A stretch of DNA of 64,000 nucleotides from Neglectibacter timonensis (lineage in GTDB: Bacteria; Bacillota; Clostridia; Oscillospirales; Acutalibacteraceae): the NCBI RefSeq assembly GCF_900048895.1, contig NZ_LT160640.1, positions 1-64,000 on the forward strand, given 5' to 3'. Positions 8,463 to 50,185 of this stretch are shown here, piece by piece. Position 1 is the stretch's first letter, and each line of letters begins with the position of its first letter. The notes beneath the pieces were generated by a model. The model was not told the origin of the DNA and ran no database searches. It worked only from the letters and a program-made list of their open reading frames with translations. A program made the translations under genes and the position numbers.

Positions 8463-9371
8463 TTATTCGTCCACCATGATAAGCTCGGAATCAAAGTACT
8501 GTTCCTGAAACCATACTTGTTCCCAAATAGCTTCTTTGGAAAAAGTATACCTCTCCGGCGCGGCAATCCATTTGTCCTCGTTATCGTCTCTCCGATGGAC
8601 AACTGCCAGGATTACGGCACGACAGCTTGGCACAGGCTGGTCTACTCCTAACAGGTATACATCCTGCGCTTCTCCATCCCCACCCAAGATACCGGGAACA
8701 TAGCCGTAATTGACAGGATACACGATGTCGGGATGCGATGGGTGGACGGAACCGAGAGGACGGTCGACTGCAACCAACACAGTTGAACCTAGTATTTCAG
8801 CTGGTTTCACCGCTTGCCCTTCCCGGATTTTGAAGCAGGCGGCGTCATGATCGTTAATGATTCCTGCTGCCTGCAGATGCGAATATGTTGTTACCCGGCC
8901 AAGGAATTTGAAGCCCCTCTTTTTCAAGTCTGTACTGATCTGTTCTGAGAGCTCATTATAGGGCCTGTTCCGTTCTCCATCAGGATAGCGTTGGGGAACT
9001 CCATTCACAAAAGACCAAAGATATTTGCTAAAACTGCCTTCTGCTTCCTGAATCTTCAGGAAGCATTTCGCGTTATGGATGATCGCTTCTATTTTTTTCC
9101 GGGAACGAATGATTCCTGGATTCTCCAATAGTTCTGCGATTTTATCATCCCTATAGCAGGCGATCTTTTGGTAATCAAATTGATCGAAAGCAGCCTGCAT
9201 AGCGGCACGCTTCCGCAGTATGGTCATCCAACTCAAACCACATTGCATGACTTCCAAACTTAGAAATTCAAATTGCTTTTGGTCGTCGCACAGAGGATTT
9301 CCCCACTCCTCATCATGATAGCGCTCTAAAAGTGGGTCTCCGTTTGCCCAGACACACCGATGCTGTTCCAT
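8463..9371 (-). CDS. Tag 3-methyladenine DNA glycosylase fused to a pyrophosphatase-like domain
   Basis: A 302-residue two-domain protein. Residues 1-185 are a full Tag glycosylase, which excises 3-methyladenine from DNA. The HRCVW start, YHDEEWG, CGLSWMTILRKR and KKRGFKFLG are all present, and the zinc ligands fall at C6, H19, H175 and C179, as in E. coli Tag. Residues about 195-302 resemble the short family I inorganic-pyrophosphatase-like proteins of Clostridia (RPLGS, YPVNYGYVPG, DGEAQDVYLLGVD, W-I-A-APE). The start at 9371 has an AGGAGG site five bases ahead; the longer frame to 9401 has none. The fusion is unusual; each half is normally encoded alone. The catalytic state of the second domain is uncertain. 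Confidence 0.85.
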   Translation of the reverse strand: MEQHRCVWANGDPLLERYHDEEWGNPLCDDQKQFEFLSLEVMQCGLSWMTILRKRAAMQAAFDQFDYQKIACYRDDKIAELLENPGIIRSRKKIEAIIHNAKCFLKIQEAEGSFSKYLWSFVNGVPQRYPDGERNRPYNELSEQISTDLKKRGFKFLGRVTTYSHLQAAGIINDHDAACFKIREGQAVKPAEILGSTVLVAVDRPLGSVHPSHPDIVYPVNYGYVPGILGGDGEAQDVYLLGVDQPVPSCRAVILAVVHRRDDNEDKWIAAPERYTFSKEAIWEQVWFQEQYFDSELIMVDE

Positions 9372-9528
9372 AAGCTCCTCCTGTTTTTTTGATTTTAACA
9401 TGATTTCACAAAAAAATCAAATTTTGTTTGACTTTTTTAAACTAGAAGGCTATAATAAATTTCCGTGCCGAATTTTGGCGCGAAGACAGCAATTTGAACG
9501 ATACAGGAGAAGGGAGTGTGTTTTGAGT

Positions 9529-14610: not shown

Positions 14611-15840
14611 TTACAGGCGCCTGATTCTATACCTCCGTTTGGCGGGGAGGGCAGTATCGGCGCACTCTTTATCCAGACAGCGGATCCAGAGCCTGAGACG
14701 AAGAGAGAGCGCCTGCTGCCATAGGTAGGCGCTGGGAACCAGCCATAGTAATTTGTTTTCAGCAAAGGTTGGAGTCCCTGTGAAGACGACGCTACAGAAA
14801 GCCAGCAGCAGAAAAAACACAGTGGTTCCCCAAAGCCCCCGATTTTGCTGCATGGAGAGGCGGGGCAGAGAGATGGGATAGAGGAAAACAGCTAGAAGGC
14901 CGAACCCTATAGCTTTTAGAGAGTTGAGAAAGAGCGGCAGCTCCGGCCCAAGCTTTTCCGAGGTGAGCAGCAGAACCAGCTCATCTCCTTTGCTTTTCCA
15001 AAGCCTGCTCCAAAATTCAAAATCTGACCACTTGGTGGGAATAAAGTCTTCGGGAAGCTGGAAAGAGAATTCGCAAAGCCAGAGCAAGAGAAACCAGGAC
15101 AGCCCGCAGAGCAGGAGGCAGGCCAGAAAAGGAAGGGGGAATTCCAGGGCGGTGAAAGTTGTTTTCAAAAGGGAGAACAAAGCAGACAGCAGCAGAACTG
15201 CTGGGGCAAGCAGCGTTCCGGCATGGGCTAGTTCGCTCCAAAAGCGCAGGGAAGACCATTGGCCTGAAAGTCCATGGCGGTTTACAAATTCTGTCAAAAA
15301 TTTGTGTGGAGCAGTTCCGGATGGTATGCTGAGACTGACCCGGGACATATCGGAATCCTCCGGCAAAGCCTGTAAAAGAAGTATTGGAGCGTCTCCTTCC
15401 AGGATGCCGCGTACCGTCAGGATCCTGTTCTGGTAGTTCAGCGTATTTCCAACGGCTTTTGAAGTTCCAAACAGCTCCTGTGCAGTAGTGCGGTCCAGGA
15501 GACAGCCCTCCGTATCTTCGGTGAGAAGCGGTGCGGAAGAGGAATAGAGAAGGAAAGAAGGGCCGCACAGCGTCAAAACAGCAGGATAAGCAGTCCGTCC
15601 CAAGCTAGGGTTTGACACTGGTTTCTCTGACTCCTGCCCCCAAACTGCAAAGGGGACAGGGTCGCTTTCCATCGCCTCTTTCCTCTGCATTTCAAGTGCT
15701 TCCTTTCCGGTGAAAGTACGCTCTTCCTGAATCAGCGTATACAAATTTGGGAGCTCTTGAATTTGCTGGGAGGCGGTGCTGGAGAGAAACAGACAAAGAA
15801 AGAAAAGGCCGGGTAAAAGGAGGCGGCGCAGCGCTTTCAC
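14611..15840 (-). CDS. MacB/FtsX-like membrane protein, divergent
   Basis: A 409-residue membrane protein, the last gene of the minus-strand transport operon. It has an N-terminal signal/transmembrane segment, then an extracytoplasmic region with the MacB periplasmic-domain signature (LLDRTTAQELFG...AVGNTL...ILTVRGILE), then about five hydrophobic segments. MacB/FtsX permeases normally end in a conserved four-helix core that I do not see clearly, so it is a diverged relative. The GTG start overlaps the stop of the adaptor gene by four bases (GTGA), which implies translational coupling and points to a physical partnership with the adaptor. No ATPase is encoded nearby. Confidence 0.6.
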   Translation of the reverse strand: MKALRRLLLPGLFFLCLFLSSTASQQIQELPNLYTLIQEERTFTGKEALEMQRKEAMESDPVPFAVWGQESEKPVSNPSLGRTAYPAVLTLCGPSFLLYSSSAPLLTEDTEGCLLDRTTAQELFGTSKAVGNTLNYQNRILTVRGILEGDAPILLLQALPEDSDMSRVSLSIPSGTAPHKFLTEFVNRHGLSGQWSSLRFWSELAHAGTLLAPAVLLLSALFSLLKTTFTALEFPLPFLACLLLCGLSWFLLLWLCEFSFQLPEDFIPTKWSDFEFWSRLWKSKGDELVLLLTSEKLGPELPLFLNSLKAIGFGLLAVFLYPISLPRLSMQQNRGLWGTTVFFLLLAFCSVVFTGTPTFAENKLLWLVPSAYLWQQALSLRLRLWIRCLDKECADTALPAKRRYRIRRL

Positions 15841-17558
15841 GGCTGATTCAGACGCACCCGGTCGCCTGCCTCCAAGGGCTTGTTGGAATCTGCGATGAAT
15901 TCTTGACCTGCGACGAGGCTTCCTCCGTCAATAGCTGCATAGCTTTCATTTTTTTCCAAAATTTCCACGTTCAGCCGGGCTGCGGTAAGCTCTGGCCCCA
16001 AAAATCCTGCATCTTCCTGGATAATCAGGAGGTAATAGCCCCCGTTTTCTTCCTGCAAAGCGCTGAGCGGAACACAGTAGGGATAGGGTTTGGAGGGCTG
16101 GACTGCTTCCATTTCCGCGGAGCTGCCCAGTTTCAGAGAATTTTCGGGCAGTTTTACTGTAATCTCCAGCAGTTCGGAATCCTTCTGGACCTTTTGAATG
16201 GATTCTACGGTCAGGCCGGTAAGTTCTTTTTGATCGCCGCCAGGTTTCAGCGTTACTGTGCTGCCTACAGAAATATATTTTTCCTGCTCCGCAGGAATTT
16301 GCGCTATAAAAGCAGTTCCCTGAGAGAGGTCGGAGATCAATACGGCAGTGCCGTCCGGTGTGGGATTTCCCACCTCAATATTCAGCTTGTCCACCACGCC
16401 ATCGAAAGCGGAACGGACGACGCCTCCGTTTTCCAGCAATTTTTGAAGCTCTTCTATTTTTTCTGACAACTTTTGCCATTCCATCTCCATCTTTTCTGCA
16501 GAACTGTCGGCGGACGGGGATTTCTGGGCGTCTTCTATGGCTCTGGCGGCGGCCTTCAGAGCAGAATCCCTAGCGGAAACTGCTTGGTCAAAGTTTTGCT
16601 GGGCAATGGAGACGGCATCTAACAGTTCCTGCTCCTGAGAGCTGGATTCCTGCTCTGAAGCCGCCGCCAAATCATGATCGGCAGTCTGTTTTTCAGAACG
16701 AGCGGTTTCTGCTTTTTCAGCAGCGGTATTCAATGCCTGTTCATAGGATGCCCTGACAGAATTTTCAGCCTCGTCCGGATCGACTCCCGCTGTTTCAGCC
16801 TGCTGGCGTGCCTCCTGCACCTGCTGATCGACGGTCGTCTGCAGCGCATCCAGAGCGGAAAGGGCCTCTTCCAAGGCCTTTTCCCGTGCTTCACAGATAA
16901 GCTGAAGAGATTCCAAGTCCGCGTGAGGCGGAGGATTCTCCCGGTACTCTTCCAACCTGTTCTGTGCCTCAGTGAGAATTTTTTGCGCCTGCTCTACTGC
17001 TTTTCCAGTCTCGCTTTTCATGTCGTTATAATCCTGAAGGGCTCGGGCAAGCGCGGTACTGCGGCTGTCGGCTTCCGTCTTCTCCCTGCTTTTCTGATCC
17101 CGGATATCCAGGTTCAGTTTTTCCAATTCCAATTCTGTTTCCTCCAATTTTTGCTGAAGGTCTTCCAGGCTCAGGGAAAACAGCGGGTCATTTTCCGCTA
17201 CCGCTTCGCCAGGCTTGACCGCTAGGGAAGCCACTCGTATTCCGGGAAAGGAGGTTACGGTCTTTGCTCCATTTGCAATTACCTGGCCGGAAGCAGTGAT
17301 TTTATGATCGATTGACCTTTTTTGTGTTTCCTGCAGATCTACCCGGGCGATGGTCAGGCTGTCTGCGACCCGGGAGAGAACTGTGAAGAATATCATCAGG
17401 CTCAGGAAGCCTGCAAGGGCTCGCAGAGCCTTGGCCTGCAGTGTAAACGGCTTCTTACGGCGGCGTCCAATCAGGCTGTGTAAATCTATCTCAATCAGTC
17501 GGGCTGGGCTGCCGGGGTGTGGCCGCGGCAGTTGATTCTTACTGTGGAGTCGTTCCAT
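15837..17558 (-). CDS. HlyD/RND-type membrane-fusion adaptor protein
   Basis: A 573-residue adaptor. It has a basic cytoplasmic N-terminus, one transmembrane helix near residues 45-65, a split lipoyl domain (SGQVIANGAK...VKPGEAVAENDPLFSL and later VRSAFDGVVDKL), a long coiled coil rich in Glu, Gln and Ala between the two halves, and a beta-barrel region near the C-terminus (STVTLKPGGDQKELTG). Such adaptors join export permeases to extracytoplasmic factors. The ATG at 17558 with AAAGGA ahead is preferred over the longer frame to 17606. It follows an importer-type permease gene by 161 bases, an odd neighbour. Confidence 0.85.
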   Translation of the reverse strand: MERLHSKNQLPRPHPGSPARLIEIDLHSLIGRRRKKPFTLQAKALRALAGFLSLMIFFTVLSRVADSLTIARVDLQETQKRSIDHKITASGQVIANGAKTVTSFPGIRVASLAVKPGEAVAENDPLFSLSLEDLQQKLEETELELEKLNLDIRDQKSREKTEADSRSTALARALQDYNDMKSETGKAVEQAQKILTEAQNRLEEYRENPPPHADLESLQLICEAREKALEEALSALDALQTTVDQQVQEARQQAETAGVDPDEAENSVRASYEQALNTAAEKAETARSEKQTADHDLAAASEQESSSQEQELLDAVSIAQQNFDQAVSARDSALKAAARAIEDAQKSPSADSSAEKMEMEWQKLSEKIEELQKLLENGGVVRSAFDGVVDKLNIEVGNPTPDGTAVLISDLSQGTAFIAQIPAEQEKYISVGSTVTLKPGGDQKELTGLTVESIQKVQKDSELLEITVKLPENSLKLGSSAEMEAVQPSKPYPYCVPLSALQEENGGYYLLIIQEDAGFLGPELTAARLNVEILEKNESYAAIDGGSLVAGQEFIADSNKPLEAGDRVRLNQP

Positions 17559-17719
17559 GCAGATTGTTCCTTTCTGTGTTTCTGAATCCCTTTCTGCGGC
17601 ATGCAAAGCTGTGCGCTACCTGCCAGATCTGAGTGTGCGAGATTATACGGAATCGCTAGAGGTGTTATACAGTCCTGCGTCCAATCTGGTACGATGCAGT
17701 GGGTGAAAGTTTCAGCCCC

Positions 17720-18559
17720 TCAGCCTTTTATTGCGGCTGCGGTGATCCCCTGCTCCAGATAATCCTGTCCGCTGAGAAAGACCAGAAGAGCGGGCAGCAG
17801 GGTCACTACCGATCCGGTAAATGCCACCCCTGCCTTTGCCAGGTCAATGTTGGGAAGATAGAGGGAGAGGGGCCAAAGCGTCTTGTCTTTTAAAAAAGCC
17901 AGGGGCTGTTCAATCAGATTCCAGTTTTCTAAAAATCCGAGTACCAGCGCAGATACGATCCCAGCAGAACCCAAAGGCAGACCGATGTTCAGGAAGATTT
18001 GAAAGGCACTCCCAGTATCCAGCTTGGCAGATTCTAAAATAGCCTCTGGAATGGAACGGAAAAAACGATACATTAAAAATACTGGAAAGGTGGAAAAAAC
18101 AGCGGGCAGGATGACAGACCACTGCGTGTTGATGAGATGAATGCTGTCCAGCACCAAAAAGCTGGACAGCATGGTGACCTGGAAGGGCATCAGCATCAGG
18201 ATGAGATAAAGGGTAAAAAGAGTTTTCCGAAAACGGAACTGAAACCGTGCGAATCCCCAAGCGGCCGGCGCACCTACCAAAAGCTGTCCGACAAGGATCA
18301 GGGCTGTAATGCGCACGGAGTTCCAAAACATGGCAAAAAACTCGGGAGAATCCAGCAGCAGCTCTACATAAGAGCGCAGACTGGGGGATTGGGGGACCAG
18401 CCGCCAAGCGACATAGCCTTTGCCCTGAGAGAGTATAGGGGACAAATACTGTGACAGCTCACCGGGATCCATCAGTGAACCTGTAAGAAGAAACAGCACA
18501 GGGCTGCAGACCAGAAAAGCAAGTGGAAGGAGCACAAACAGTGCCAGTTTCCAGCGCAA
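17720..18559 (-). CDS. Carbohydrate-type ABC transporter permease, MalG class
   Basis: A 279-residue inner-membrane permease with six hydrophobic segments and the EAA loop ESAKLDTG...IFLNIGLPL near residue 195, the site where the ATPase docks. MalG-class subunits pair with a MalF-class subunit, here encoded just upstream. The TTG start is supported by AGGAGGTG about six bases ahead. No cognate ATPase lies in the window, so a shared ATPase of the MsmK type is likely. Confidence 0.9.
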   Translation of the reverse strand: MRWKLALFVLLPLAFLVCSPVLFLLTGSLMDPGELSQYLSPILSQGKGYVAWRLVPQSPSLRSYVELLLDSPEFFAMFWNSVRITALILVGQLLVGAPAAWGFARFQFRFRKTLFTLYLILMLMPFQVTMLSSFLVLDSIHLINTQWSVILPAVFSTFPVFLMYRFFRSIPEAILESAKLDTGSAFQIFLNIGLPLGSAGIVSALVLGFLENWNLIEQPLAFLKDKTLWPLSLYLPNIDLAKAGVAFTGSVVTLLPALLVFLSGQDYLEQGITAAAIKG

Positions 18560-18617
18560 GGAAGCACCTCCTCTTTGAAGATTGGAGATATGGGGAGTCC
18601 TGAAATAGGACAGATAT

Positions 18618-19469
18618 TCACTCTTCCCAGTTCCAGATTCGCTGCAGAAGCAGGATCAATCCCAGGATAACGGCAGCTACCAGAACCGCTCCTGCAGAGA
18701 GTTTATCGAAGGAGAGATCCCGAAACCAATTGTTAAACAGATGCTGGAGCAGGTACATACTCTCGTTTGGATAATCCCCTGCCACCAGATAGGCTTCGCG
18801 AAATACCTTGAAGGAATTGAGGAAGGAAAGGACGGAAATAGTGTAGAGGGACGGGAGCAGGGATGGAAAAGTAATCTTGCAGAAAATTTTCCATTCTCCG
18901 GCTCCGTCTACCTGGGCGGCCTCGTAAATCTGAGTGGGGATTCCCGAGAGCCCTGCCATCCACAGTACAATGTCATACCCTAGGTTTTTCCATAGGTAAC
19001 TGCCGCAGAGCACCCAGAATGCGGCGGGGCTGTTCATCCAGTCTTCGGGGACTGCACCTAACCGGCAGAGCAAACTGTTCCAAAGCCCGCTGTTTTCAAA
19101 CAGGACCCGCCAGACCAGCGCAACAGAGGCTACCGGGATGGCCATCGGAAAAAGAAAGGCAGTTTTCAAAATACCGCCCAGCCGGCCTAAACGCTGCAGA
19201 AACACAGCGAGTAGCAGAGAGATGGCGAGCAGAGAAGGGATACATACCCCCACAAATCGCAGGGTATTCCAACAGGCCAGCCGGAAAGCAGAATTGTGAA
19301 GGATAGACCAATAATTTTGAAAACCTGCCCACTCCTCGGAAACAGAACTGGATAGCGAACGCCGAAGAACATCGAGAAACGGCAGAAGAACAAAGAGGCA
19401 TACCCCGGTCAAGCTGGGGAGGAGAAAGCACAGCCCAATATTTTCTCCTTTGATTCTGTTTTTTTTCAT
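18618..19469 (-). CDS. Carbohydrate-type ABC transporter permease, MalF class
   Basis: A 283-residue permease with six hydrophobic segments and a canonical EAA loop, EAAQVDGAGEWKIFCKITFP. It begins one base after the stop of the binding-protein gene and lies 58 bases ahead of the MalG-class gene. Together with both it forms the importer-like half of this operon. The transported compound cannot be read from sequence. Confidence 0.9.
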   Translation of the reverse strand: MKKNRIKGENIGLCFLLPSLTGVCLFVLLPFLDVLRRSLSSSVSEEWAGFQNYWSILHNSAFRLACWNTLRFVGVCIPSLLAISLLLAVFLQRLGRLGGILKTAFLFPMAIPVASVALVWRVLFENSGLWNSLLCRLGAVPEDWMNSPAAFWVLCGSYLWKNLGYDIVLWMAGLSGIPTQIYEAAQVDGAGEWKIFCKITFPSLLPSLYTISVLSFLNSFKVFREAYLVAGDYPNESMYLLQHLFNNWFRDLSFDKLSAGAVLVAAVILGLILLLQRIWNWEE

Positions 19470-19470
19470 A

Positions 19471-21900
19471 TCATTCAGAAAGATAAAGGGCTACCTTTTT
19501 CAGAATCTCTTGAACGGCATCGTTCAACTCCAGCTTTCCTTCCAGATAGGCTTGACCGGACTGCAGCACTGCATCGAGGATTATAGTATCCTGGGTCGCC
19601 GGAATTTCCAACCCTTCTACGGTTTCCCGCAGCGCGTCATATTCCTCCTCGGTAGGTTTGCGGAAGGTTAAATTTATGCTGTATGAACTGTCGGAGCTGA
19701 TTACAGCAATGCCGCCCAAGGAACTGTCTTTGACTTGACAGAGCTGCTCAAAGGTTTTCTTGTTGACCGGCATACCCAGTCCCTGATCGATAGCCTGTAC
19801 TTCAGAGGACAGGAGAAACTTCACAAAAGTTTTTGCCTCCTCCTGCTGAGAACTTTTGGCGTTGATACCAACTACGCCGGCGGGCAGAAAAACGTTGCCT
19901 GCCTGACCAGGCTGAGGAGCATATCCATAGTTTTGCATCTTATCGTTAACCGATACCAGGCTGGGAAGACCGCCGATGGAGGAGAAATTCTCCAAGGAGA
20001 TCAGGCTGTTCCCTGACGTCAGCTCGGTACCCATGGCCATACCGTTTTTGCCGAAAGAGACACTGGCATATCCGAGCCCATCTTGAGGATCTCCGCCGTC
20101 TTCATCGGGAAGATTCGTGTCGAAAATACGTTTGGCCTGCTGAAGAAATTCGGAGAGGGCATCCTGTTTAAGTGTTCCGTCTGTCTGAAACCATGCGGGG
20201 GAATTGGCGGGATAGAGGGCTTTCAGGAGAGAAGCGGCGTCAGTAAGGCCTGTAACGCTTTTCTGGTCAGGATGTTCCTTCCTCAGCTTATCTACAGCAT
20301 CTGCCAGGGAAGCGAGATCATGGACAGAGGAAAGCGACTCTTTATCCGCATCTAGAATGGGGAGGACAAAACGGGTGGGAACGGCATAATAGCCTTCATC
20401 GGTTTTGTAAGCGGACAAAATATTTTCAAAGAGGCCATCGGAATCCTCGACTTCCTTTACCAAGTCTCCGATCTCTGTGAGCAGGCCTTTTTGTAGGTAA
20501 TTCTGCACAGGCATTCCATCCAAAAAGATGACGTCCGGGCCTTTTCCTGCCATGATGTTGGTATTTAGGGTGCGAAGGGCATCTGAAACGGTCATGGCGT
20601 CGCTTCCGCTTAGGGCCAGTTCCAGATTGATATAGATATCTGGATTTGCCTTCTGATACATGGCGATAGCTTGGCGCAGCTCTGTGGAGTCTGAGAACGC
20701 ATAGGCTTTCAGTTCTTTTTCTGGAACTGCAGACATGTTAGGGTCATAGAGATAGTTCAGCAGTTTGTGGCTTTCGTCAGTTTCATTCCACCCCAAGAGG
20801 GTAAAAGAATCGTCAGAAAGCTTGAGAATCTTCTGTACGTGGAAAGTGGGGTCGGAAAGCGTGTTGAGGGCGCCGTTGATTACCTGCTCTATACTGCTGC
20901 CGCCCAGAATATGACGGTAGACCCCGTTTTGCGAGCAGAGGTAAATGGAATCGTCCTGCCTGTCGGAAAAAAGGAGAATGTCTCCGGTGAGAAAAACGTT
21001 TCCTGATGATGAGACATTTGTCTGTACAGTGGCTTCGGGGTTTCCTGTACTTTGTCTGGAACTGTTCAGAAAATCTTCCAAAACGCTGTCCCGTTCTTTT
21101 AAGGTCCAGTCAGTGAGATGGAATAGGTCTACTCCATCGTAGGAACGGACCAGGAGAGTGTCCGTGGTGAGGACAAAATCAATGTATTGATTATATGTGC
21201 CCGTGGCTTCCAGGGTGTGCAGGAAAGATCCGGTTTCCGGATCGATATGGTAGAGTACGCCGTTCTGATCCAGCCCAAGCAATGATCCGTCATGGAGAAA
21301 GGAAAACTTCTGGATGCTGTTTTCCGGGACGGCCGAGCTGCCTGATGCGACGCTGGTTTCAGCCGCAGAGGAGGCACTGTCTTCAGAGGAATCTTCAGGA
21401 GCGCCGGATTTATCATCCGAGCCACTCAGGAGTACGCCGTCTGTAAACGTCTCGTTTTCGGGCAGATTTAAGACTAGCTCCCTCTTTTTCCGCGACTTAT
21501 CCATCAGCCAATACCGGGACTTTCCGGAGTCGTCAGAGGTGGTAAATACAGCGCTGCCGTCGGTCCCCCAAGCGGCTGGCGATGAAAATGTTTCAGGAGC
21601 TTCTGCCTCGAAAGCAACTTTTTCCCAGGTCTTACCATTGTCGGAAGAGTCGAAGATACCTTCCGAACTGGTAAGACGGAGTTTGTCGCCCGTTTGATCC
21701 AAGGAGAGGGGGATGTTCCCGTCACCTCCTGGAAGGCTGAATTCTTCTTCTACATAACGTCCCTTGGCTGATGAATTGGAAGGAATATCCGAGAGGCTGC
21801 TATCGCCGCCGGTGCTGCAGGCGACCGCAGACAGCAAGAGGGCAGAAGAGAGGAACAGGCTGATTAATTTTGTTCCATATCGTTTTAACTTTGGTCTCAT
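19471..21900 (-). CDS. Solute-binding lipoprotein with N-terminal propeller-like region
   Basis: An 809-residue secreted lipoprotein, about twice the usual length. A signal peptide ends at the lipobox cysteine C28. Residues about 45-385 are rich in beta-repeat sequence and include one exact Asp-box, SSDNGKTW (85-92), plus recurrent D-x-G-x-L strands (DGSLLGLDQNGVLYHIDPETGS), as in sialidase/BNR propellers. From about 395 a type 1 extracellular solute-binding domain follows (GKGPDVIFLDGMPVQNYLQKGLLTEI, YYAVPTRF). It is the first gene of the operon and divergent from the response regulator. The extra domain may bind glycan, wall or a partner protein; that is inference. Confidence 0.85.
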   Translation of the reverse strand: MRPKLKRYGTKLISLFLSSALLLSAVACSTGGDSSLSDIPSNSSAKGRYVEEEFSLPGGDGNIPLSLDQTGDKLRLTSSEGIFDSSDNGKTWEKVAFEAEAPETFSSPAAWGTDGSAVFTTSDDSGKSRYWLMDKSRKKRELVLNLPENETFTDGVLLSGSDDKSGAPEDSSEDSASSAAETSVASGSSAVPENSIQKFSFLHDGSLLGLDQNGVLYHIDPETGSFLHTLEATGTYNQYIDFVLTTDTLLVRSYDGVDLFHLTDWTLKERDSVLEDFLNSSRQSTGNPEATVQTNVSSSGNVFLTGDILLFSDRQDDSIYLCSQNGVYRHILGGSSIEQVINGALNTLSDPTFHVQKILKLSDDSFTLLGWNETDESHKLLNYLYDPNMSAVPEKELKAYAFSDSTELRQAIAMYQKANPDIYINLELALSGSDAMTVSDALRTLNTNIMAGKGPDVIFLDGMPVQNYLQKGLLTEIGDLVKEVEDSDGLFENILSAYKTDEGYYAVPTRFVLPILDADKESLSSVHDLASLADAVDKLRKEHPDQKSVTGLTDAASLLKALYPANSPAWFQTDGTLKQDALSEFLQQAKRIFDTNLPDEDGGDPQDGLGYASVSFGKNGMAMGTELTSGNSLISLENFSSIGGLPSLVSVNDKMQNYGYAPQPGQAGNVFLPAGVVGINAKSSQQEEAKTFVKFLLSSEVQAIDQGLGMPVNKKTFEQLCQVKDSSLGGIAVISSDSSYSINLTFRKPTEEEYDALRETVEGLEIPATQDTIILDAVLQSGQAYLEGKLELNDAVQEILKKVALYLSE

Positions 21901-21938
21901 ACTCTAAGCGTCCTTTCTGTTTTGGAATTCTGCACGAT

Positions 21939-21972
21939 AGGATACCACCCAAATCTCTAAACAGCCTCTAAA
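21939..21972 (-). promoter_or_regulatory. Candidate response-regulator site and promoter of the transport operon
   Basis: Read on the minus strand, TTTAGAG occurs twice as a direct repeat with an 11-base period (CTCTAAA at 21955-21961 and 21966-21972 on the plus strand), the spacing typical of OmpR/PhoB-class sites. A -10-like TATCCT (21939-21944) lies just downstream, so the repeats overlap the -35 region as for an activator. Another TTTAGAG lies on the plus strand at 22089-22095, just before the response-regulator gene. Confidence 0.45.
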
Positions 21973-22100
21973 TTTTAAAGGTTTTTTCGAGATTTCCATG
22001 ATATACTTAGTTTCAGATCAAAAAAGCGGTGGAATACTGAGAGTACGGCTGGAAGTATGGAAATCGTCTGACGCTGAAGGAAAGCTGGTTTAGAGAAAAG

Positions 22101-22787
22101 ATGCGTATTTTGTTGATTGAAGACGATAGAAGGTTATTAGAATCTTTGAAATTTCAACTGGAAAAGGAAGATTTTACTGTCGATGCCTGCACAACTGGAG
22201 ACGATGGATTATATTTTGTGCTGCAGGGAGCCTATGACCTGGTGATCTTGGACAGAATGCTGCCCGGCATGGATGGGATATCCCTCCTCAGGCGGCTGCG
22301 CAGAGAGGGCGGAGCTGTACCGGTGATCTTATTGACTGCATTGGGAGAACTGGAACACAAAATCGAAGGGCTGGATGCAGGGGCGGATGATTATATTGTA
22401 AAGCCGTTTGCTTTTGAAGAATTGATGGCCCGGATTCGCAGTATTGGCCGCCGGCCGCAAAGCTGGGAGCAGCATGAGACCTATACTGTAGGAGATCTGC
22501 GCCTGGAACCAAGGGAAAAGCGGCTGGAAGGTCCGGGAGGCGTGTGCAGCCTTTCCAAACGGGAAGCCGATCTGCTGGAATTCTTTCTGAAGAATCCGGG
22601 TCAGACCCTTCCGAGAGAGACTTTGCTCCTCAGAGTATGGGGACCGGATGCCGAGGTTGAGGATGGGAACCTCGACAACTATATTCATTTTCTGCGTCGC
22701 CGGCTGCGTACTTTGGGCAGCACCCTGAAGCTGGTGACAGTACGGGGAACCGGATACCGCTTGGAAGAGGAGGATGAGAATGTTTGA
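22101..22787 (+). CDS. OmpR-family response regulator
   Basis: A 228-residue two-domain regulator. The receiver has the acidic pair near residues 8-9, the phospho-acceptor D51 (LVILDRMLPGMDG), T79 (LLTALGE) and K101 (VKPFAF). A winged-helix OmpR/PhoB output domain follows (LSKREADLLEFFL, RVWG, VDGN-like NLDNYIHFLRRRL, VRGTGYRLE). It overlaps the kinase gene and is divergent from the transport operon, which it probably controls. Confidence 0.95.
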   Translation: MRILLIEDDRRLLESLKFQLEKEDFTVDACTTGDDGLYFVLQGAYDLVILDRMLPGMDGISLLRRLRREGGAVPVILLTALGELEHKIEGLDAGADDYIVKPFAFEELMARIRSIGRRPQSWEQHETYTVGDLRLEPREKRLEGPGGVCSLSKREADLLEFFLKNPGQTLPRETLLLRVWGPDAEVEDGNLDNYIHFLRRRLRTLGSTLKLVTVRGTGYRLEEEDENV

Positions 22788-24066
22788 GCGTCTCCACAGG
22801 CAAATGACCCTTTTCTGCGCGGCGGTTACCGGAATCATACTGGTGGTTATGACGCTGCTGTGCCTATTCCTTTCAGAAGCTTCTATCCGTCAAAACCATT
22901 ATCAATCCTTTTTGAATGAGCTGAATTCGGTCATCTCCTATCTGGAAAACCAAACAGTCATTTCCAATCAATGGCTTGCGAAAACAGAGGATGACAACAG
23001 GCTGGTTCTGGATGTATATGATAACGGGGCTCCGTTGCTGTACAATTCCCTGGCGGCGATACAGCCCGAGCGGGAAAAACTGGTGGAGCAGGCGAAGAGA
23101 CAGGCGGCAGAAGAATATGGGCTGGATATATCCTTGCCGGTTTCCAATTCCGTTCTCTCAAAGTATACAGAGTTTTCTATGAAGGGAGAGGAGGGCCGGA
23201 AATATTATGCGGCTGCAGCAGTGTTTCCCAAGAGCGGCGGCGCGCTCAGCGCTGTTTTAGTGTATTCTCTGACAGGGCAGGAATGGCAGGTTTTCCTGCA
23301 GCGACTGCTATTTCTCGGAGTGGATCTGCTGGGAATCGGAGGATTGATTCTGTTTTCCTGGATATTTACGGGAAAAATGCTTGGCCCTTTGGAGGAAAGC
23401 AGAAAAAAACAGGCTCAATTTGTGGCGGCAGCCTCCCATGAGCTCCGTTCTCCTTTAACAGTGATGCTATCCAACCTTTCGGCGCTGCAAAAGGCAGGTC
23501 CGAAAGATCGCGGAAGATTTGAAGAAAATATTAAGGCGGAGGGAAACCGCATGTCTCGCCTCATTGATGATATGCTGGCGCTTGCCAACGCAGACAGCCG
23601 ATCCTGGCGCATCACAAAGGCCACGGAGGAAGTGGATACCCTGATCCTCGAACTTTATGAACATTACCAGGGGCCTGCCCGGGAGCGGGGGATCGCGCTG
23701 TCTGTACGCTTGCCGGAAAGGGTTCTGCCGGAGTGCGTTTGCGACGGCGGCCGCATCCAGCAGGCGCTCTCTGTGCTCCTGGAAAATGCTTTGAGCTATA
23801 CCCCTCAGGGAGGATGCGTAGAACTTTCTGTCGAAGAGAAGTCCGGCAGATGCCTGATTTCTGTACAGGATAACGGACCTGGAGTTCCTGATGGGGAGAA
23901 GCTGCGAATCTTTGACCGTTTTTACCGCACTGATAAATCCCATCAAAATAAGGAGCATTTCGGACTGGGGCTTTGTGTGGCCCGTGAGATTGTTGATCTG
24001 CATAAGGGGAAACTTTGGGTGGAGGATACCCCTGGCGGAGGCGCTACATTTTGTATGCTGCTGTGA
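22780..24066 (+). CDS. Sensor histidine kinase
   Basis: A 428-residue membrane kinase. Two transmembrane helices (about 15-32 and 175-197) frame a roughly 140-residue extracytoplasmic sensor region of no recognised type. The dimerisation motif AAASHELRSPLTV places the phospho-histidine at H220, and N, G1 and G2 boxes follow (LLENALSYTP, DNGPGVPDG, GLGLCVAREIV). The ATG at 22780 sits six bases after AGGAGG; an ATG at 22774 is adjacent to that site and less likely. Partner of the preceding response regulator by overlap. Confidence 0.93.
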   Translation: MFERLHRQMTLFCAAVTGIILVVMTLLCLFLSEASIRQNHYQSFLNELNSVISYLENQTVISNQWLAKTEDDNRLVLDVYDNGAPLLYNSLAAIQPEREKLVEQAKRQAAEEYGLDISLPVSNSVLSKYTEFSMKGEEGRKYYAAAAVFPKSGGALSAVLVYSLTGQEWQVFLQRLLFLGVDLLGIGGLILFSWIFTGKMLGPLEESRKKQAQFVAAASHELRSPLTVMLSNLSALQKAGPKDRGRFEENIKAEGNRMSRLIDDMLALANADSRSWRITKATEEVDTLILELYEHYQGPARERGIALSVRLPERVLPECVCDGGRIQQALSVLLENALSYTPQGGCVELSVEEKSGRCLISVQDNGPGVPDGEKLRIFDRFYRTDKSHQNKEHFGLGLCVAREIVDLHKGKLWVEDTPGGGATFCMLL

Positions 24067-24174: not shown

Positions 24175-24585
24175 TTATGCGTGATGAATTAGCCTTTTGA
24201 ATTCTGCAGCCGAGGTATTAGAGCGGTAGATTGTGCCGGAACCTTCCGGATTGGGACCTGGATAGTAGAAATCTACATATTCGCCGTTGATATCTACTAT
24301 AACGGTGAGCTTGCCGCCCTCCCAAGGGGTAATTTCCAAAAGATAGTCCGGATAGTAAGCGAACATGGAAAGCGATTTATCCAGAGGTTCAGCTTCCAAA
24401 ATAACGCGGGAAAAAGCCTGGATGCGTTCCCGCTTTTCAGAGGTGCTGGCGTTAAGATGGAGCAGCTTCAGATGCTCTCCATAGCCGCGGGAAAGATCCA
24501 TCTGCAGGGAATTCGGAGTACTGCTGCATCCGGATAACTGCAGAACCATGATGCAAAAAAGAAGAACGCAGAGCGATTTTTTCAT
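24175..24585 (-). CDS. Small secreted lipoprotein, function unknown
   Basis: A 136-residue protein with a signal peptide ending in the lipobox LSGC (C20). The mature part has no motif I recognise; it contains a region of strands (LLEITPWEGGKLTVIVDINGEYVDFYYPG) suggesting a small beta-fold. It converges with the histidine kinase gene, stands alone, and has its own terminator. Confidence 0.75.
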   Translation of the reverse strand: MKKSLCVLLFCIMVLQLSGCSSTPNSLQMDLSRGYGEHLKLLHLNASTSEKRERIQAFSRVILEAEPLDKSLSMFAYYPDYLLEITPWEGGKLTVIVDINGEYVDFYYPGPNPEGSGTIYRSNTSAAEFKRLIHHA

Positions 24586-46193: not shown

Positions 46194-46904
46194 ATGAGGC
46201 GGGAAGCGCGGGAAAATAAGAGGAAATTACTGATTAGGCGGCTCCTTTTCGGTCTGATTCTGCTTTTTGCGGCGGGGATCGGGGCTGTTTTTGGTGTGAA
46301 TACCTATGTGCAGGCCTCCGTGCAGGACAGAATCCTTACCGAGGAACAAGCGGCAGAGCTGGAAGAAATAGACTGTGTTTTGGTACTGGGATGCGGCCTG
46401 GAAGCCGACGGTTCTCCCAGCCCTATGCTGCATGACAGGCTTCAGCAGGGGGTAGCTCTTTACCAAAAGGAAGCAGCCCCCAAGCTGTTGGTCAGCGGGG
46501 ATCACGGCAGGGAAGAATATGATGAGGTCAATGCTATGAAACGGTTTGCTGAGGAACAAGGTGTTCCCTCAGAGGATGTATTCATGGATCATGCAGGTTT
46601 TTCTACCTATGAAAGCGTTTATCGGGCCCGGGATATCTTTCAGGTCAGGCGGATGGTCATTGTAACGCAGGAGTACCATTTATCGCGGGCACTGTACATT
46701 GCGAAGCGACTGGGGATAGAAGCCTGGGGTGTGCCTGCCGATCCCAGAACCTACAGCGGTCAGACCGCCAGAGACCTGCGTGAAATTTTGGCGCGGGATA
46801 AAGATTTCCTCACCTGCATTCTCAAGCCAAAGCCCACCTATCTGGGGAAAGCTATCCCGGTGAACGGCAATGGGAATTTGACCAATGATGGAAATTTGGA
46901 GTAA
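46194..46904 (+). CDS. SanA/ElyC/YdcF-like envelope protein (DUF218)
   Basis: A 236-residue protein with a basic N-terminus, one transmembrane helix (about 16-36) and a DUF218 domain outside the membrane: VLVLGCGLEADGSPSPMLHDRL, LLVSGDHG, VTQEYHLSRALYIAKRLG. SanA relatives affect envelope integrity and vancomycin tolerance; the biochemical activity is unclear. It lies 16 bases after asnA and is probably co-transcribed. Confidence 0.88.
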   Translation: MRREARENKRKLLIRRLLFGLILLFAAGIGAVFGVNTYVQASVQDRILTEEQAAELEEIDCVLVLGCGLEADGSPSPMLHDRLQQGVALYQKEAAPKLLVSGDHGREEYDEVNAMKRFAEEQGVPSEDVFMDHAGFSTYESVYRARDIFQVRRMVIVTQEYHLSRALYIAKRLGIEAWGVPADPRTYSGQTARDLREILARDKDFLTCILKPKPTYLGKAIPVNGNGNLTNDGNLE

Positions 46905-47009
46905 GTTTTCTTCTGTGTATAAGACGAATGCAAAGTGCTGGCAGTACTGGCAATATCATGAATATAAGGCGGTTGGGCAGGCGCTCTGAGGCATCTGCTG
47001 AACCATTTC

Positions 47010-47038
47010 TTGTTTTTTCCTTTTGGCTATGCTATAAT
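47010..47038 (+). promoter_or_regulatory. Promoter of the PASTA pseudokinase gene
   Basis: TTGTTT (47010-47015), 17 bases, TATAAT (47033-47038) with an upstream TGC making an extended -10. It overlaps the start of the longer possible frame and so supports the start at 47121. Confidence 0.75.
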
Positions 47039-47120
47039 AACCGCAGTTGCCTGCGATTTACAGTGGAAAACGGGAATGTTCCTGTTTTCTGCTGCGTTTG
47101 GCTTGGGTTGGGAGGACATG

Positions 47121-48728
47121 ATGGAAAGCAAACTGTGTAGGAACTGTTTTGCCGAATACCATTCTGAAGAAAGCGGTAGCGTTTGCCCCGTGTGCGGATG
47201 GGACAATGCGAAGCCGCAGGTACCAGAAGGGCTGCGGTATCATACGGTTCTTGACGCCCGGTATGTCATTGGACGGGCAAAGTCAATGAACGGCGAGGGA
47301 ATCACCTATGCGGCATTGGACCGTACGACAAAAAAGGTGGTGGAGATCCGGGAGTTTTTCCCCTTGTCCCTTGCTTCTCGAAATGCCGAGGATCAGACAA
47401 TTCTGCCTGCCGGCGGAAAAGAGGCGGAGTTTAACAGCTGTCTGGATGATTTTGTGGAGCTTTCCAAAAATGTCAGCAGGCTGAGAGAATTGAGCGTGGT
47501 GAATTCTGTGCTCGATATCTTTGAGGAAAACTATACGGCCTACGCAGTTTACGAATACGTGCCTTCCGTTACGCTGCGGCGTTCTTTGGAAAATGTGGGG
47601 GGAACACTTTCCTGGAACGAGGTTAACCGGATGTTTATGCCGGTGCTTACAGCATTAGGGCTGATGAATTCCCTGGGCATCTCTCACCTGGGCGTTTCTC
47701 CCGACACCTTACGGGTTACCAAAGAGGGCGGGATGTTGATTACCGGATTTGCCGTGAATGCGGTCCGCAGAAGGGGAACTCTTTTGATAGAAGAATTGTA
47801 CCCAGGCTGTGCTGCGGTGGAGCAGTACAGCAGTAAGGCGGTGTGCGGGGAGATGAGCGACGTCTATGCGCTGGCCGCCACCATGTTTTACGCGTTGACC
47901 GGTTCCCTGCCAAAGGAGGCGCCGGAACGTCTGAACGATCAGCGTCTGCTGATCTCTAAAGAGGTCCTGAAAAATCTGCCTCCCTTTGCCGTAACTGCAA
48001 TTGCCAATGCGCTGCAGGTAAAACAGGAGACCAGGACCGCCAGTTTTGAGCGGTTTAAGGCAGAACTTTCTTCCGCTCCGAGCGTTGTTACAGAGATTGA
48101 ACATACTGATGCGATCCGGCGTCTGCCGCCCATCGATATGGATTTGCCTCAAAATCGGGGGCTGCCGCCCGCGGTCTGGCTGATCGGTTCCTGTGTCATC
48201 ACACTGGTAGCTCTTGTGATTGTAGCGTCAATTTGGCTGGGGGACAGGGGAATGTCTTTTAATGACATTCAAAGATTGTTCCAAAACAGCAGCGCGGCCA
48301 GTGAGGTTATCACTGTTCCCAGTATGGTAAACGAGAGTTATGCCGATTGGGAAAAAAAGATAGCGGACGGGGAATATGATTTTAAGCTGAAGGTCTCTAC
48401 CCGGGAATTCAACGGGACGGTAGAGGAAGGAAATATTATCAGTCAAAGTCCCTTTGCTGGAGAAACCATTGCCGCAGGTGATACGGTGGTGGTTACCGTG
48501 AGTAAGGGCAGCGCTACCCGTACCCTGCCTGAGGTAAAGGGCACAAGCTTTGCCGACCTTTCAGAAATCCTGAGTAAAAATGGATTTGTTCCGGTAAAAG
48601 AGGATGAATTCAGCGACGATATCGAGCCCGGTTATGTCATTGGCTATAAAGATCGCAAAGAGGGGGATTCCCTTGACTACGGTTCTACGGTTACCGTGAT
48701 TGTCAGTGCCGGACCGGAGGAGTCCTGA
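47121..48728 (+). CDS. Zinc-ribbon PASTA pseudokinase
   Basis: A 535-residue membrane protein. An N-terminal zinc ribbon (C6, C9, C22, C25) precedes a Ser/Thr-kinase fold (about 40-315). The catalytic residues are gone: VAIK reads VEIR (R77), HRD reads HLG with SPDTL retained (189-195), and DFG reads TGF. One transmembrane helix (351-373) leads to two PASTA repeats outside (about 396-532), which bind peptidoglycan in active relatives. It therefore looks like a wall-sensing pseudokinase or scaffold. GGAGG lies five bases before the ATG at 47121. It is followed by a WYL regulator. Confidence 0.88.
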   Translation: MESKLCRNCFAEYHSEESGSVCPVCGWDNAKPQVPEGLRYHTVLDARYVIGRAKSMNGEGITYAALDRTTKKVVEIREFFPLSLASRNAEDQTILPAGGKEAEFNSCLDDFVELSKNVSRLRELSVVNSVLDIFEENYTAYAVYEYVPSVTLRRSLENVGGTLSWNEVNRMFMPVLTALGLMNSLGISHLGVSPDTLRVTKEGGMLITGFAVNAVRRRGTLLIEELYPGCAAVEQYSSKAVCGEMSDVYALAATMFYALTGSLPKEAPERLNDQRLLISKEVLKNLPPFAVTAIANALQVKQETRTASFERFKAELSSAPSVVTEIEHTDAIRRLPPIDMDLPQNRGLPPAVWLIGSCVITLVALVIVASIWLGDRGMSFNDIQRLFQNSSAASEVITVPSMVNESYADWEKKIADGEYDFKLKVSTREFNGTVEEGNIISQSPFAGETIAAGDTVVVTVSKGSATRTLPEVKGTSFADLSEILSKNGFVPVKEDEFSDDIEPGYVIGYKDRKEGDSLDYGSTVTVIVSAGPEES

Positions 48729-48747
48729 CCGAAAGGAGGATGTACTC

Positions 48748-49698
48748 TTGGCAAGCGTCTCCGAAAAGAAACTGAAGCTGCTCTATCTGATGGAACTGTT
48801 CTACCGGCAGACGGACAGGGAGCACACCCTCACGCTGCCTGTGATACTCCAGAAATTGGCGGAGCATGGGATTTCTGCCGAAAGGAAAAGTATCTATGAC
48901 GATATCGAGACCCTACGCAGCTTTGGGTTGGATATCCGAATGTGCAAAACGAAAAATTTTGAGTATTATCTGGCGAATCCTTTGCTGGGATCTCAGGAAT
49001 TGAAGTTTTTGGTAGAAGCGCTGGAAAAAGATGGGGAGCTGCCAGAAGAGAAAAAGCGAAAGCTTTGCGGAAAGCTGTCTTATCTGTGTAGCGTGCATCA
49101 GGCTGGAATTTTGCAGGGGAGGATTGCTCAGGTACAGGAGAAGACAAAGGGTTCGGATAAAATTTCAGCTGAAGCTGCGGTGCAAACGGCGTTTGACAAG
49201 AAAAGGATCGTTTGTTTTCAATATGCCGATTTGGAGCTTGCGGAGGGGACATCGGAGCTCCGTGAAGTGCTGAGAAAAAGCGGAAAAATATTCCAGGTGG
49301 TTCCCCTGCAGCGTCTGGGAGAAGAAAGCTTCTTGGGAGCAGAGATAACTGGAGACAAAGTGAAGCAGTTTTACTTGAACAGAATACGGAATCCGGAGCT
49401 TTCTACAGAAGCGGTGGAGTCCGTTTTTCTGAAAGCGTTTATGGACAGACAGGAAGCGCTGTGTCTTGAGGTGGATAGAGAGGCTCTTTGTGTTTTGGCT
49501 GCTTGTTTTGGAAAACTGCAGAGCGTGGAAAGTGTTGGAAAGGGCTGTTTTCAGGTTGTCCTGAATACTTGGATCCAACCGGATGTCCTGCGTTTTCTTC
49601 TCTCGTTCGGTGAAGGCGTTAAGGTGATCTCCCCTAAAAAAACAGCAGAACAACTTAGAGAACGTGCGAAAGCGCTCGCAAAGCTATATAAAAATTAA
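48748..49698 (+). CDS. WYL-domain transcriptional regulator
   Basis: A 316-residue regulator with an N-terminal helix-turn-helix (LKLLYLMELFYRQTDREHTLTLPVILQKLAEHGI...SIYDDIETLRSFG) and a WYL ligand-binding region in the middle (KRIVCFQYADLEL, FQVVPLQRLGEESFLGAE). The W-Y-L tripeptide is not intact. WYL proteins often sense nucleic-acid ligands. The TTG start at 48748 follows AAGGAGG by eight bases, 20 bases after the pseudokinase stop, so the two are probably one operon. Confidence 0.85.
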   Translation: MASVSEKKLKLLYLMELFYRQTDREHTLTLPVILQKLAEHGISAERKSIYDDIETLRSFGLDIRMCKTKNFEYYLANPLLGSQELKFLVEALEKDGELPEEKKRKLCGKLSYLCSVHQAGILQGRIAQVQEKTKGSDKISAEAAVQTAFDKKRIVCFQYADLELAEGTSELREVLRKSGKIFQVVPLQRLGEESFLGAEITGDKVKQFYLNRIRNPELSTEAVESVFLKAFMDRQEALCLEVDREALCVLAACFGKLQSVESVGKGCFQVVLNTWIQPDVLRFLLSFGEGVKVISPKKTAEQLRERAKALAKLYKN

Positions 49699-49701
49699 AA
49701 C

Positions 49702-49737
49702 AAAAAGTGGTTCCGCTTAGATGCGGAACCACTTTTT
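49702..49737. terminator. Bidirectional terminator between convergent genes
   Basis: A perfect 15-bp stem (49702-49716 with 49723-49737) with A-run and T-run flanks serves the WYL gene and the opposing metal-regulator gene. Confidence 0.9.
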
Positions 49738-50098
49738 AACCTTTTACATGCTGTTTGATTGCCTGAAAACTTTCATCGCTGATCACGTGCTCAATACGGC
49801 AGGCATCCTCCGCCGCTGTTTTGGAGTCGACCCCAAGGGAAACCAGCCAGTTGGTAAACAAGGTGTGACGTTCATAAACCCTCTCGGCAATGGCCCTTCC
49901 CTTTTCCGTCAGGAAAATCAGGCCGTCGCCGTCTACCTGGATACAATCGTTTTCCCGGAGGTTTTTCATTGCGACGCTGACACTGGGCTTGCTGAATTCC
50001 AGTTCTTGCGCGATGTCGATTGAGCGTACCATGCCATTGCGCTGATTGAGGACGAGGATGGTTTCCAGATAATTTTCAGCGGATTCCTGTATTTTCAA
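49736..50098 (-). CDS. DtxR/MntR-family metal-dependent regulator
   Basis: A 120-residue regulator with the N-terminal winged helix (SAENYLETILVLNQRNGMVRSIDIAQELEFSKPSVSVAMKNLRENDCI) and a metal-binding dimerisation domain (AERVYERHTLFTNWL, EEDACRIEHVIS: here AEDACRIEHVISDES). There is no C-terminal SH3-like domain, as in MntR. It probably represses iron or manganese uptake genes elsewhere. The TTG start has GGAGGAGG about seven bases ahead. Confidence 0.92.
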   Translation of the reverse strand: MKIQESAENYLETILVLNQRNGMVRSIDIAQELEFSKPSVSVAMKNLRENDCIQVDGDGLIFLTEKGRAIAERVYERHTLFTNWLVSLGVDSKTAAEDACRIEHVISDESFQAIKQHVKG

Positions 50099-50148
50099 TC
50101 CCGCGCCTCCTCCATGTTGTATTGGAATACTTGTCAGTGATTTGTATC

Positions 50149-50177
50149 ATTATACTCGATTTTTGGAGTGGATTCAA
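50149..50177 (-). promoter_or_regulatory. Promoter of the DtxR-type gene
   Basis: Minus strand TTGAAT (50172-50177), 17 bases, TATAAT (50149-50154), about 50 bases before the start codon. It partly abuts the end of the CcdA-TlpA gene, so the DtxR gene is not simply that gene's operon partner. Confidence 0.75.
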
Positions 50178-50185
50178 GTGAAAAC

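Follow-up and report, generated by a model that had tools for sequence, protein, structure and literature searches.

A conserved operon of Neglectibacter timonensis joins MalFG-class importer genes to an HlyD-type adaptor and a MacB-like protein and probably encodes an ABC importer with an extracytoplasmic accessory

A stretch of 64,000 nucleotides of Neglectibacter timonensis (NCBI RefSeq assembly GCF_900048895.1, contig NZ_LT160640.1, positions 1 to 64,000 of the forward strand; hereafter the window) was analysed, in which positions 14,611 to 24,066 hold a five-gene operon on the minus strand and a divergent two-component pair. With a probability of roughly 0.6, the operon is read here as a type I (MalFG-class) ATP-binding cassette (ABC) importer with an adaptor/MacB-like extracytoplasmic accessory, powered in trans by a shared MalK-type ATPase. 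A two-domain lipoprotein would capture the ligand outside and MalF and MalG would move it inward, with power drawn from a MalK-type ATPase encoded elsewhere in this genome, most likely an orphan MsmX/UgpC protein. On the outside of these permeases, the adaptor of HlyD type and the MacB-like protein, which has no ATPase, would serve as a conduit, a clamp or a platform for docking, placed between membrane and cell wall; the latter protein would be no independent pump, and the divergent two-component system would switch the whole unit on via a TTAGAG-N5-TTAGAG box. An earlier interpretation made from the letters of the window (the sequence-only reading) had proposed a signalling or envelope-sensing machine rather than a nutrient importer; its unit of importer parts, adaptor, MacB-like protein and, mostly, two-component system was found to be conserved with a shared putative box, and its preference for signalling over import was not borne out. 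The features are as follows.

19471..21900, minus strand: binding lipoprotein, 809 amino acids (SBP_bac_1, 57.5 bits; cut-off 26)
18618..19469, minus strand: MalF-class permease, 283 amino acids, EAA loop intact at about 18852-18923 (BPD_transp_1, 56.9 bits; cut-off 26.4)
17720..18559, minus strand: MalG-class permease, 279 amino acids, EAA loop at about 17960-18034 (BPD_transp_1, 35.6 bits; cut-off 26.4)
15837..17558, minus strand: HlyD-type membrane-anchored adaptor, 573 amino acids, with a long coiled-coil region (HlyD_3, 26.2 bits; cut-off 22.2)
14611..15840, minus strand: MacB-like membrane protein, 409 amino acids (predicted fold and family profile; MacB_PCD below cut-off)
15837..15840, minus strand: GTGA start/stop overlap of the adaptor and MacB-like genes, read from the sequence
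21955..21971, minus strand: putative response-regulator box TTAGAG-N5-TTAGAG, an 11-base direct repeat starting 71 bases before the binding-protein start
22101..22787, plus strand: divergent OmpR/PhoB-class response regulator (Response_reg and Trans_reg_C over cut-offs)
22774..24066, plus strand: divergent sensor histidine kinase (HisKA and HATPase_c over cut-offs)

The seven open reading frames (ORFs) and the GTGA overlap (15840-15837) were found as the sequence-only reading had described them, with one correction: the adaptor starts with ATG at 17558 and not at 17559, its frame staying open upstream as far as a TTG at 17606. Pfam families were matched over curated cut-offs by all parts but the MacB-like protein. 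Among the ORFs of the operon no ABC ATPase gene was seen, as had been reported.

Relatives were collected by searching named genome contigs using the MalF alignment, and the best 80 of at least 567 confirmed loci were used (L, G and C numbers denote loci, genomes and contigs); their source titles include many Lachnospiraceae, Blautia, Clostridiales or Eubacteriales and one Coriobacteriia bin (L122). In loci with at least 5.5 kilobases (kb) downstream, MalG and the adaptor were present in 69/69, the binding protein in 62/69 and the MacB-like gene in 58/69. The supposition that MalFG and HlyD/MacB parts rarely share an operon therefore fails for this clade, and the pattern that would have refuted the sequence-only reading, with importer operons of relatives consistently lacking the adaptor and the MacB-like gene, was absent. 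Where 8.5 kb was available on both flanks, a response regulator lay nearby in 34/49 loci and a kinase in 35/49. The usual gene order is binding protein-MalF-MalG-adaptor-MacB; an adaptor-first order (binding protein-adaptor-MacB-MalF-MalG) was seen in L023, L024, L095, L103, L117, L120 and L121, a third (MalF-MalG-adaptor-MacB-regulator-kinase-binding protein) in L085 and L123, and further orders exist with the same gene set.

In the tree, 85 system MalF proteins formed a single clade (support 0.89) separate from 16 MalF controls of the own genome, five named adaptor-first loci formed one clade (support 1.0), and the 11 loci without the MacB-like gene, all of which keep the adaptor, formed another (support 0.94). 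Alignment A6 was made without the L027 MalF, which contains masked letters; A7 held all 56 listed MacB-like proteins and A8 52 of the 69 listed binding proteins, each together with the window. Pairwise identities were correlated (Spearman) between MalF and adaptor (0.70), adaptor and MacB-like protein (0.64) and kinase and binding protein (0.74), values to be read with the reservation that no control gene was included and that common descent of the genomes alone would yield some correlation. Twenty control stretches of the own genome, each covering 10 kb around another permease, gave adaptor or MacB-like matches in 0/20 (E up to 0.01).

In the MacB-less subclade, exact copies of the box precede small ORFs of 172-225 amino acids upstream of the binding proteins (L116:3520-4259, L126:3524-4283, L137:6899 and L083:4682), mostly without a Pfam match; these may be substitutes for the MacB-like part.

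Two unrelated operons split at 17559-17719, or a chance neighbourhood, were considered and rejected on the gene orders, the clade, the box and the junctions. The adaptor/MacB-like junction permits a 4-base overlap in 26/65 relatives, and at the MalG-adaptor junction an in-frame start lies at most 60 bases from the stop in 54/71, the latter count being biased toward small gaps by taking the start nearest the stop. Scans of little power detected neither a terminator-like site nor a promoter-like site on the minus strand in the window's own MalG-adaptor gap, and in an equally low-powered test its RNA folded no better than shuffles. Because the MacB-like gene stands directly before MalF and overlaps it in other gene orders, and because a copy of the box also stands before the MalF-MalG-adaptor-MacB unit in loci where that unit is separate, a division into two unrelated units at this gap is, on sequence comparison, very unlikely.

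The box of the window is the sole exact copy in the 3.67-megabase genome, so the regulator, which putatively binds it, seems dedicated to this unit; since whole-genome search of ten other genomes gave 23 exact boxes in all (11 copies of the reversed pattern), a single target holds for the window's genome only. An exact box was present in 18/26 other intergenic regions between regulator and binding protein (19/27 with the window), and dinucleotide shuffles averaged 0.0, three of 30 regions being left out of this test as shorter than 150 bases. Across the 80 loci, 77 exact boxes were counted, 70 of them before system genes, and the reversed pattern occurred in 5 copies, 4 of them likewise before system genes; the position of the box alone is for that reason a weak argument, which is carried by number (77 vs 5). 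Among loci in which the unit is split, a box stands before both the binding-protein and the permease unit in L069, L075, L078, L082, L104, L110 and L123; in L064 the boxes lie in a single divergent region that both share, in L087 and L088 just one side carries them, and L127 and L124 have none.

Transmembrane helices of the kinase are predicted to start near residues 13 and 179, which places about 145 residues outside. Bce-type kinases are not known to have a sizeable extracytoplasmic sensor region. The arrangement here differs from a Bce-type sensor-transporter module in the sizeable predicted extracytoplasmic region of the kinase, and resembles transporter-coupled two-component systems (Bce-type, Pst-PhoR) in having a two-component system beside an ABC transporter, which it probably controls.

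The EAA loops, described by the sequence-only reading as intact in both permeases, are conserved family-wide in MalF and MalG. For MalF the description held, with the glycine kept in 81/81; in MalG the loop is full-length and the glycine is kept in 77/78 aligned proteins, the window alone having threonine. A MalK-type ATPase gene directly follows MalG or the MacB-like gene in L095 (Blautia parvula), L102, L117, L120 and L122, at junctions ranging between an overlap of 4 bases and a spacing of about 20 bases; L121 has such a gene broken up into two ORFs, and in L143 one lies next to the kinase. By Pfam, five of these ATPases were examined and matched OB_MalK over cut-off in 5/5 and TOBE_2 in 4/5.

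A search of the own genome for an MsmK-type ATPase, as had been suggested, gave an orphan UgpC/MsmX-type ATPase (C14:806234-807337), which at 486 bits was the sole one of 76 matches over the NCBIfam cut-off of 432 and shares 45-64% identity with five of those ATPases of relatives. No MalF/MalG permease was recognised by eye among ORFs of at least 180 amino acids in the 13 kb around it, its neighbours, likewise judged by eye, being a pseudouridine synthase, a regulator, FtsE/FtsX and others. Two weaker MalK-like proteins of the genome (314 and 300 bits) each stand beside permeases of their own. In the 20 own-genome stretches, CUT1-like permease pairs were found in 17, with an ABC-ATPase-like ORF of more than 180 amino acids in 0/17 (10 kb, motif test); the remaining 3/20, which have such an ORF, hold other permeases. 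One multitask ATPase serving several importers is an established arrangement (PMC7658222, in excerpt). The missing ATPase, on which the sequence-only reading had laid weight, was dropped as an oddity in view of the orphan ATPase, the MalK-type ATPases in some relatives' operons and the ATPase-less importers of the own genome. Compared with CUT1/MalFGK-class importers served by MsmX-type ATPases, the system is alike in its binding lipoprotein, its two BPD_transp_1 permeases with EAA loops, the lack of an ATPase gene in the operon and the presence of an orphan MsmX/UgpC in the genome, and differs in the HlyD-type adaptor, the MacB-like protein, the beta-rich N-terminal half of the binding protein and the neighbouring two-component system.

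These results bear directly on a signalling device, in which binding protein and permeases would form a ligand sensor that signals to the divergent kinase and transports little or nothing. The frequency of neighbouring regulators and kinases, the single genomic box with its apparently dedicated regulator and the threonine in the window's MalG EAA loop speak for such a device, as do L025 (9062-13562) and L026 (6817-11168), in which a binding protein, a response regulator and a kinase lie directly together with no permease, adaptor or MacB-like gene beside them, an arrangement that may be a remnant or a pure sensing form. On the other side, MalK-type ATPases stand in several relatives' operons, EAA loops are kept across the family, the kinase has a predicted extracytoplasmic region of its own, and no regulator or kinase was detected in 15/49 fully flanked loci. 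On this balance, to which the orphan ATPase adds, signalling instead of import is unlikely; a sensing role beside import is possible.

An AlphaFold model of the binding protein (mean predicted local distance difference test score, pLDDT, 82.9) gives its C-terminal half (residues 394-809) a sugar-binding-protein fold, with CbpC as the closest match (7x0o; Z 28.9 over 377 residues), and from this fold the ligand is probably an oligosaccharide or glycan-like molecule. In the model, the N-terminal half (about residues 46-342) is rich in beta structure and looks like a propeller; propeller-type Pfam matches were weak and confined to a minority of members (PQQ_2 in 8/53 at E up to 0.1), and matches to the C-terminal domain took up both fold searches, so that this half was barely probed. 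The strand pattern and these Pfam matches weakly suggest an N-terminal beta-propeller. Two or three binding-protein genes occur in 9/49 fully flanked loci, and median identity is 0.28 for binding proteins vs 0.54 for permeases, a divergence and multiplicity to be expected if ligands differ.

For the adaptor one N-terminal transmembrane segment is predicted, the coiled coil was judged from sequence, and a four-row profile matched MexJ, MacA and EmrA chains. The MacB-like protein gave a MacB_PCD match of 22 bits over 44 residues, below the cut-off of 27. Its AlphaFold model, built from 57 sequences (mean pLDDT 87.3), has a layout of a first transmembrane helix (TM1), a MacB-type extracytoplasmic domain and a long stalk/TM2 helix, with no ATPase domain. 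The top match was Spr0695 of the pneumococcal MacAB-like pump (5xu1; Z 13.2, root mean square deviation 5.9, 284 residues), followed by the extracellular domain of YknZ (5f9q; Z 13.1 over 159), MacB (Z 12.9) and 3ftj (Z 12.7 over 185). Whole-chain Foldseek TM-scores (template modelling scores) against MacB were low (0.31-0.36 by query) and Z values under about 13 can come from common helical arrangements, so the MacB fold call rests on agreement among the top matches and on the sequence match of the family profile to YknZ (5f9q, 9.4e-8).

In MacB the major coupling helix sits between TM2 and TM3 (PMC5985334, in excerpt); in the model of the MacB-like protein these two helices are just 4 residues apart. 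The TM2-TM3 start-to-start spacing had a median of 34 in 58 MacB-like proteins, vs 48-49 in 9/9 MacB-type proteins of the ordinary kind encoded in this set of loci and 50 in FtsX of the own genome; it was measurable in 58/66 proteins, 11 of which formed a tail at 43-110, taken as partly wrong helix picks. A regular expression for the FtsX coupling signature matched 0/73 MacB-like proteins and 1/12 low-scoring, mostly ordinary MacB-type ORFs, and is uninformative because ordinary MacB-type ORFs were also nearly all negative. A motif after TM3 is conserved in the family (P268, W271-S272-D273-F274 and W277; P268-F274 at about 15019-15039). From the model and the spacing we infer that the MacB-like protein binds no ATPase of its own. 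A full MacB exporter was ruled out for want of a TM2-TM3 coupling segment. Compared with Gram-positive MacAB-like pumps (Spr0693-0694-0695, YknXYZ), the system is alike in that an HlyD/MacA-type adaptor adjoins a MacB-type extracytoplasmic domain with stalk, and differs in having no MacB-type ATPase and no TM2-TM3 coupling segment and in sitting in an importer operon. Set against the MacB (Type VII) ABC transporter, the extracytoplasmic domain is present, and the nucleotide-binding domain, in protein or operon, and the coupling helix are absent.

The same evidence weighs on the idea of two machines in one operon, an importer and a separate MacAB-type exporter borrowing its ATPase from elsewhere. 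Gram-positive adaptor genes often share operons with macB homologues (PMC5985334, in the part available), and in L064, L069, L087 and L127 an ordinary-size ATPase-adaptor-MacB set stands directly beside the hybrid operon (first 5 kb). The short TM2-TM3 spacing and the four-residue gap where MacB has its coupling helix argue against a second pump, as does the persistence of the adaptor in the 11 operons without the MacB-like gene, and we consider two machines improbable. More doubtful still is envelope protection, in which the MalFG ATPase cycle would move the adaptor/MacB-like part to remove a peptide or antibiotic from membrane or wall on induction by the two-component system, in favour of which relatives of MacB perform mechanical work outside the membrane and transport nothing across it (PMC5985334, in excerpt) and Gram-positive adaptor/MacB systems act on antimicrobial peptides (PMC5768738 and PMC4887032, both in excerpt), and against which stand the sugar-binding-protein fold of the binding protein and the dispensability of the MacB-like gene in one subclade.

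Several observations weigh against an importer with an adaptor/MacB-like accessory. Percentages are valid for this clade only, as the 80 loci comprise the nearest relatives. The MacB-like protein is absent from the 11-member subclade and is therefore not essential, and the 15 fully flanked loci without a detected regulator or kinase count here also. An ATPase within the operon was found in just 6/80 relatives, one of the genes being divided, and since the window's MalG has lost its EAA glycine, coupling to an ATPase may be weaker there. The permease-free L025 and L026 fit a sensing role. Finally, the control is imperfect in that 0.6 kb past one control stretch lies an importer with a protein of MacB-like topology and no adaptor (L178).

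This adaptor-free second importer operon spans L178:3730-7761 (G000:C12, about 46729-50760, same genome) and has a counterpart in a same-genus genome (L185:6084-13413, G125:C11). The protein of MacB-like topology follows MalG in both, with an ATGA overlap in L178; it matched the MacB-like family profile weakly (E 0.0066, probability 5.7%) and had no Pfam match. The MalF of the second operon is the nearest relative and joins the system clade (support 0.96).

ABC importers and exporters are generally treated as distinct types, each having accessory parts of its own. In many Clostridia, the permeases of an importer and adaptor/MacB parts of exporter type are here passed on together as a single unit, and the MacB-like part appears to have no ATPase interface. 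Should these parts assemble into a single complex, it would mean that adaptors can serve an importer and that the motor of an importer may drive work outside the membrane. It is tentatively conceivable that this is a new class of ABC machine, in which a type I importer (MalFG and a MalK-type ATPase) would have its ATPase cycle coupled in one complex to a MacA/MacB-like extracytoplasmic device with a dedicated two-component system, the substrate being threaded through the adaptor tube across the wall-side space to the importer, or the importer motor doing mechanical work outside the membrane. The system appears to be an ABC importer variant that has gone undescribed, in keeping with the earlier suggestion of an undescribed system: no published description of this gene set was found in the literature searched, which covered few subscription journals. 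With its clear box it offers a testable regulon.

The distribution of the system is patchy. In counts that each include the own genome, the window's MacB-like protein was matched in 4/250 genomes of the family (E up to 0.001), one of them over 52 residues only, and at 1e-15 a larger MacB-like profile found matches in 5/391 genomes of the class; for the family to which G896 belongs, 10/194 genomes were positive. At order level, a MacB-like match was obtained in 57/394 genomes (E up to 0.001), the matched range often being the generic MacB domain only; six matches exceeded 100 bits, and three weaker ones (G574, G590 and G568) hold the whole gene set.

Elsewhere in the window, a small putative lipoprotein of 136 amino acids (24175-24585, minus strand; no Pfam family over cut-off) is convergent with the kinase, and an ORF at 8463-9401 (minus strand) resembles, judging its translation by eye, a 3-methyladenine glycosylase fused to an inorganic-pyrophosphatase-like domain.

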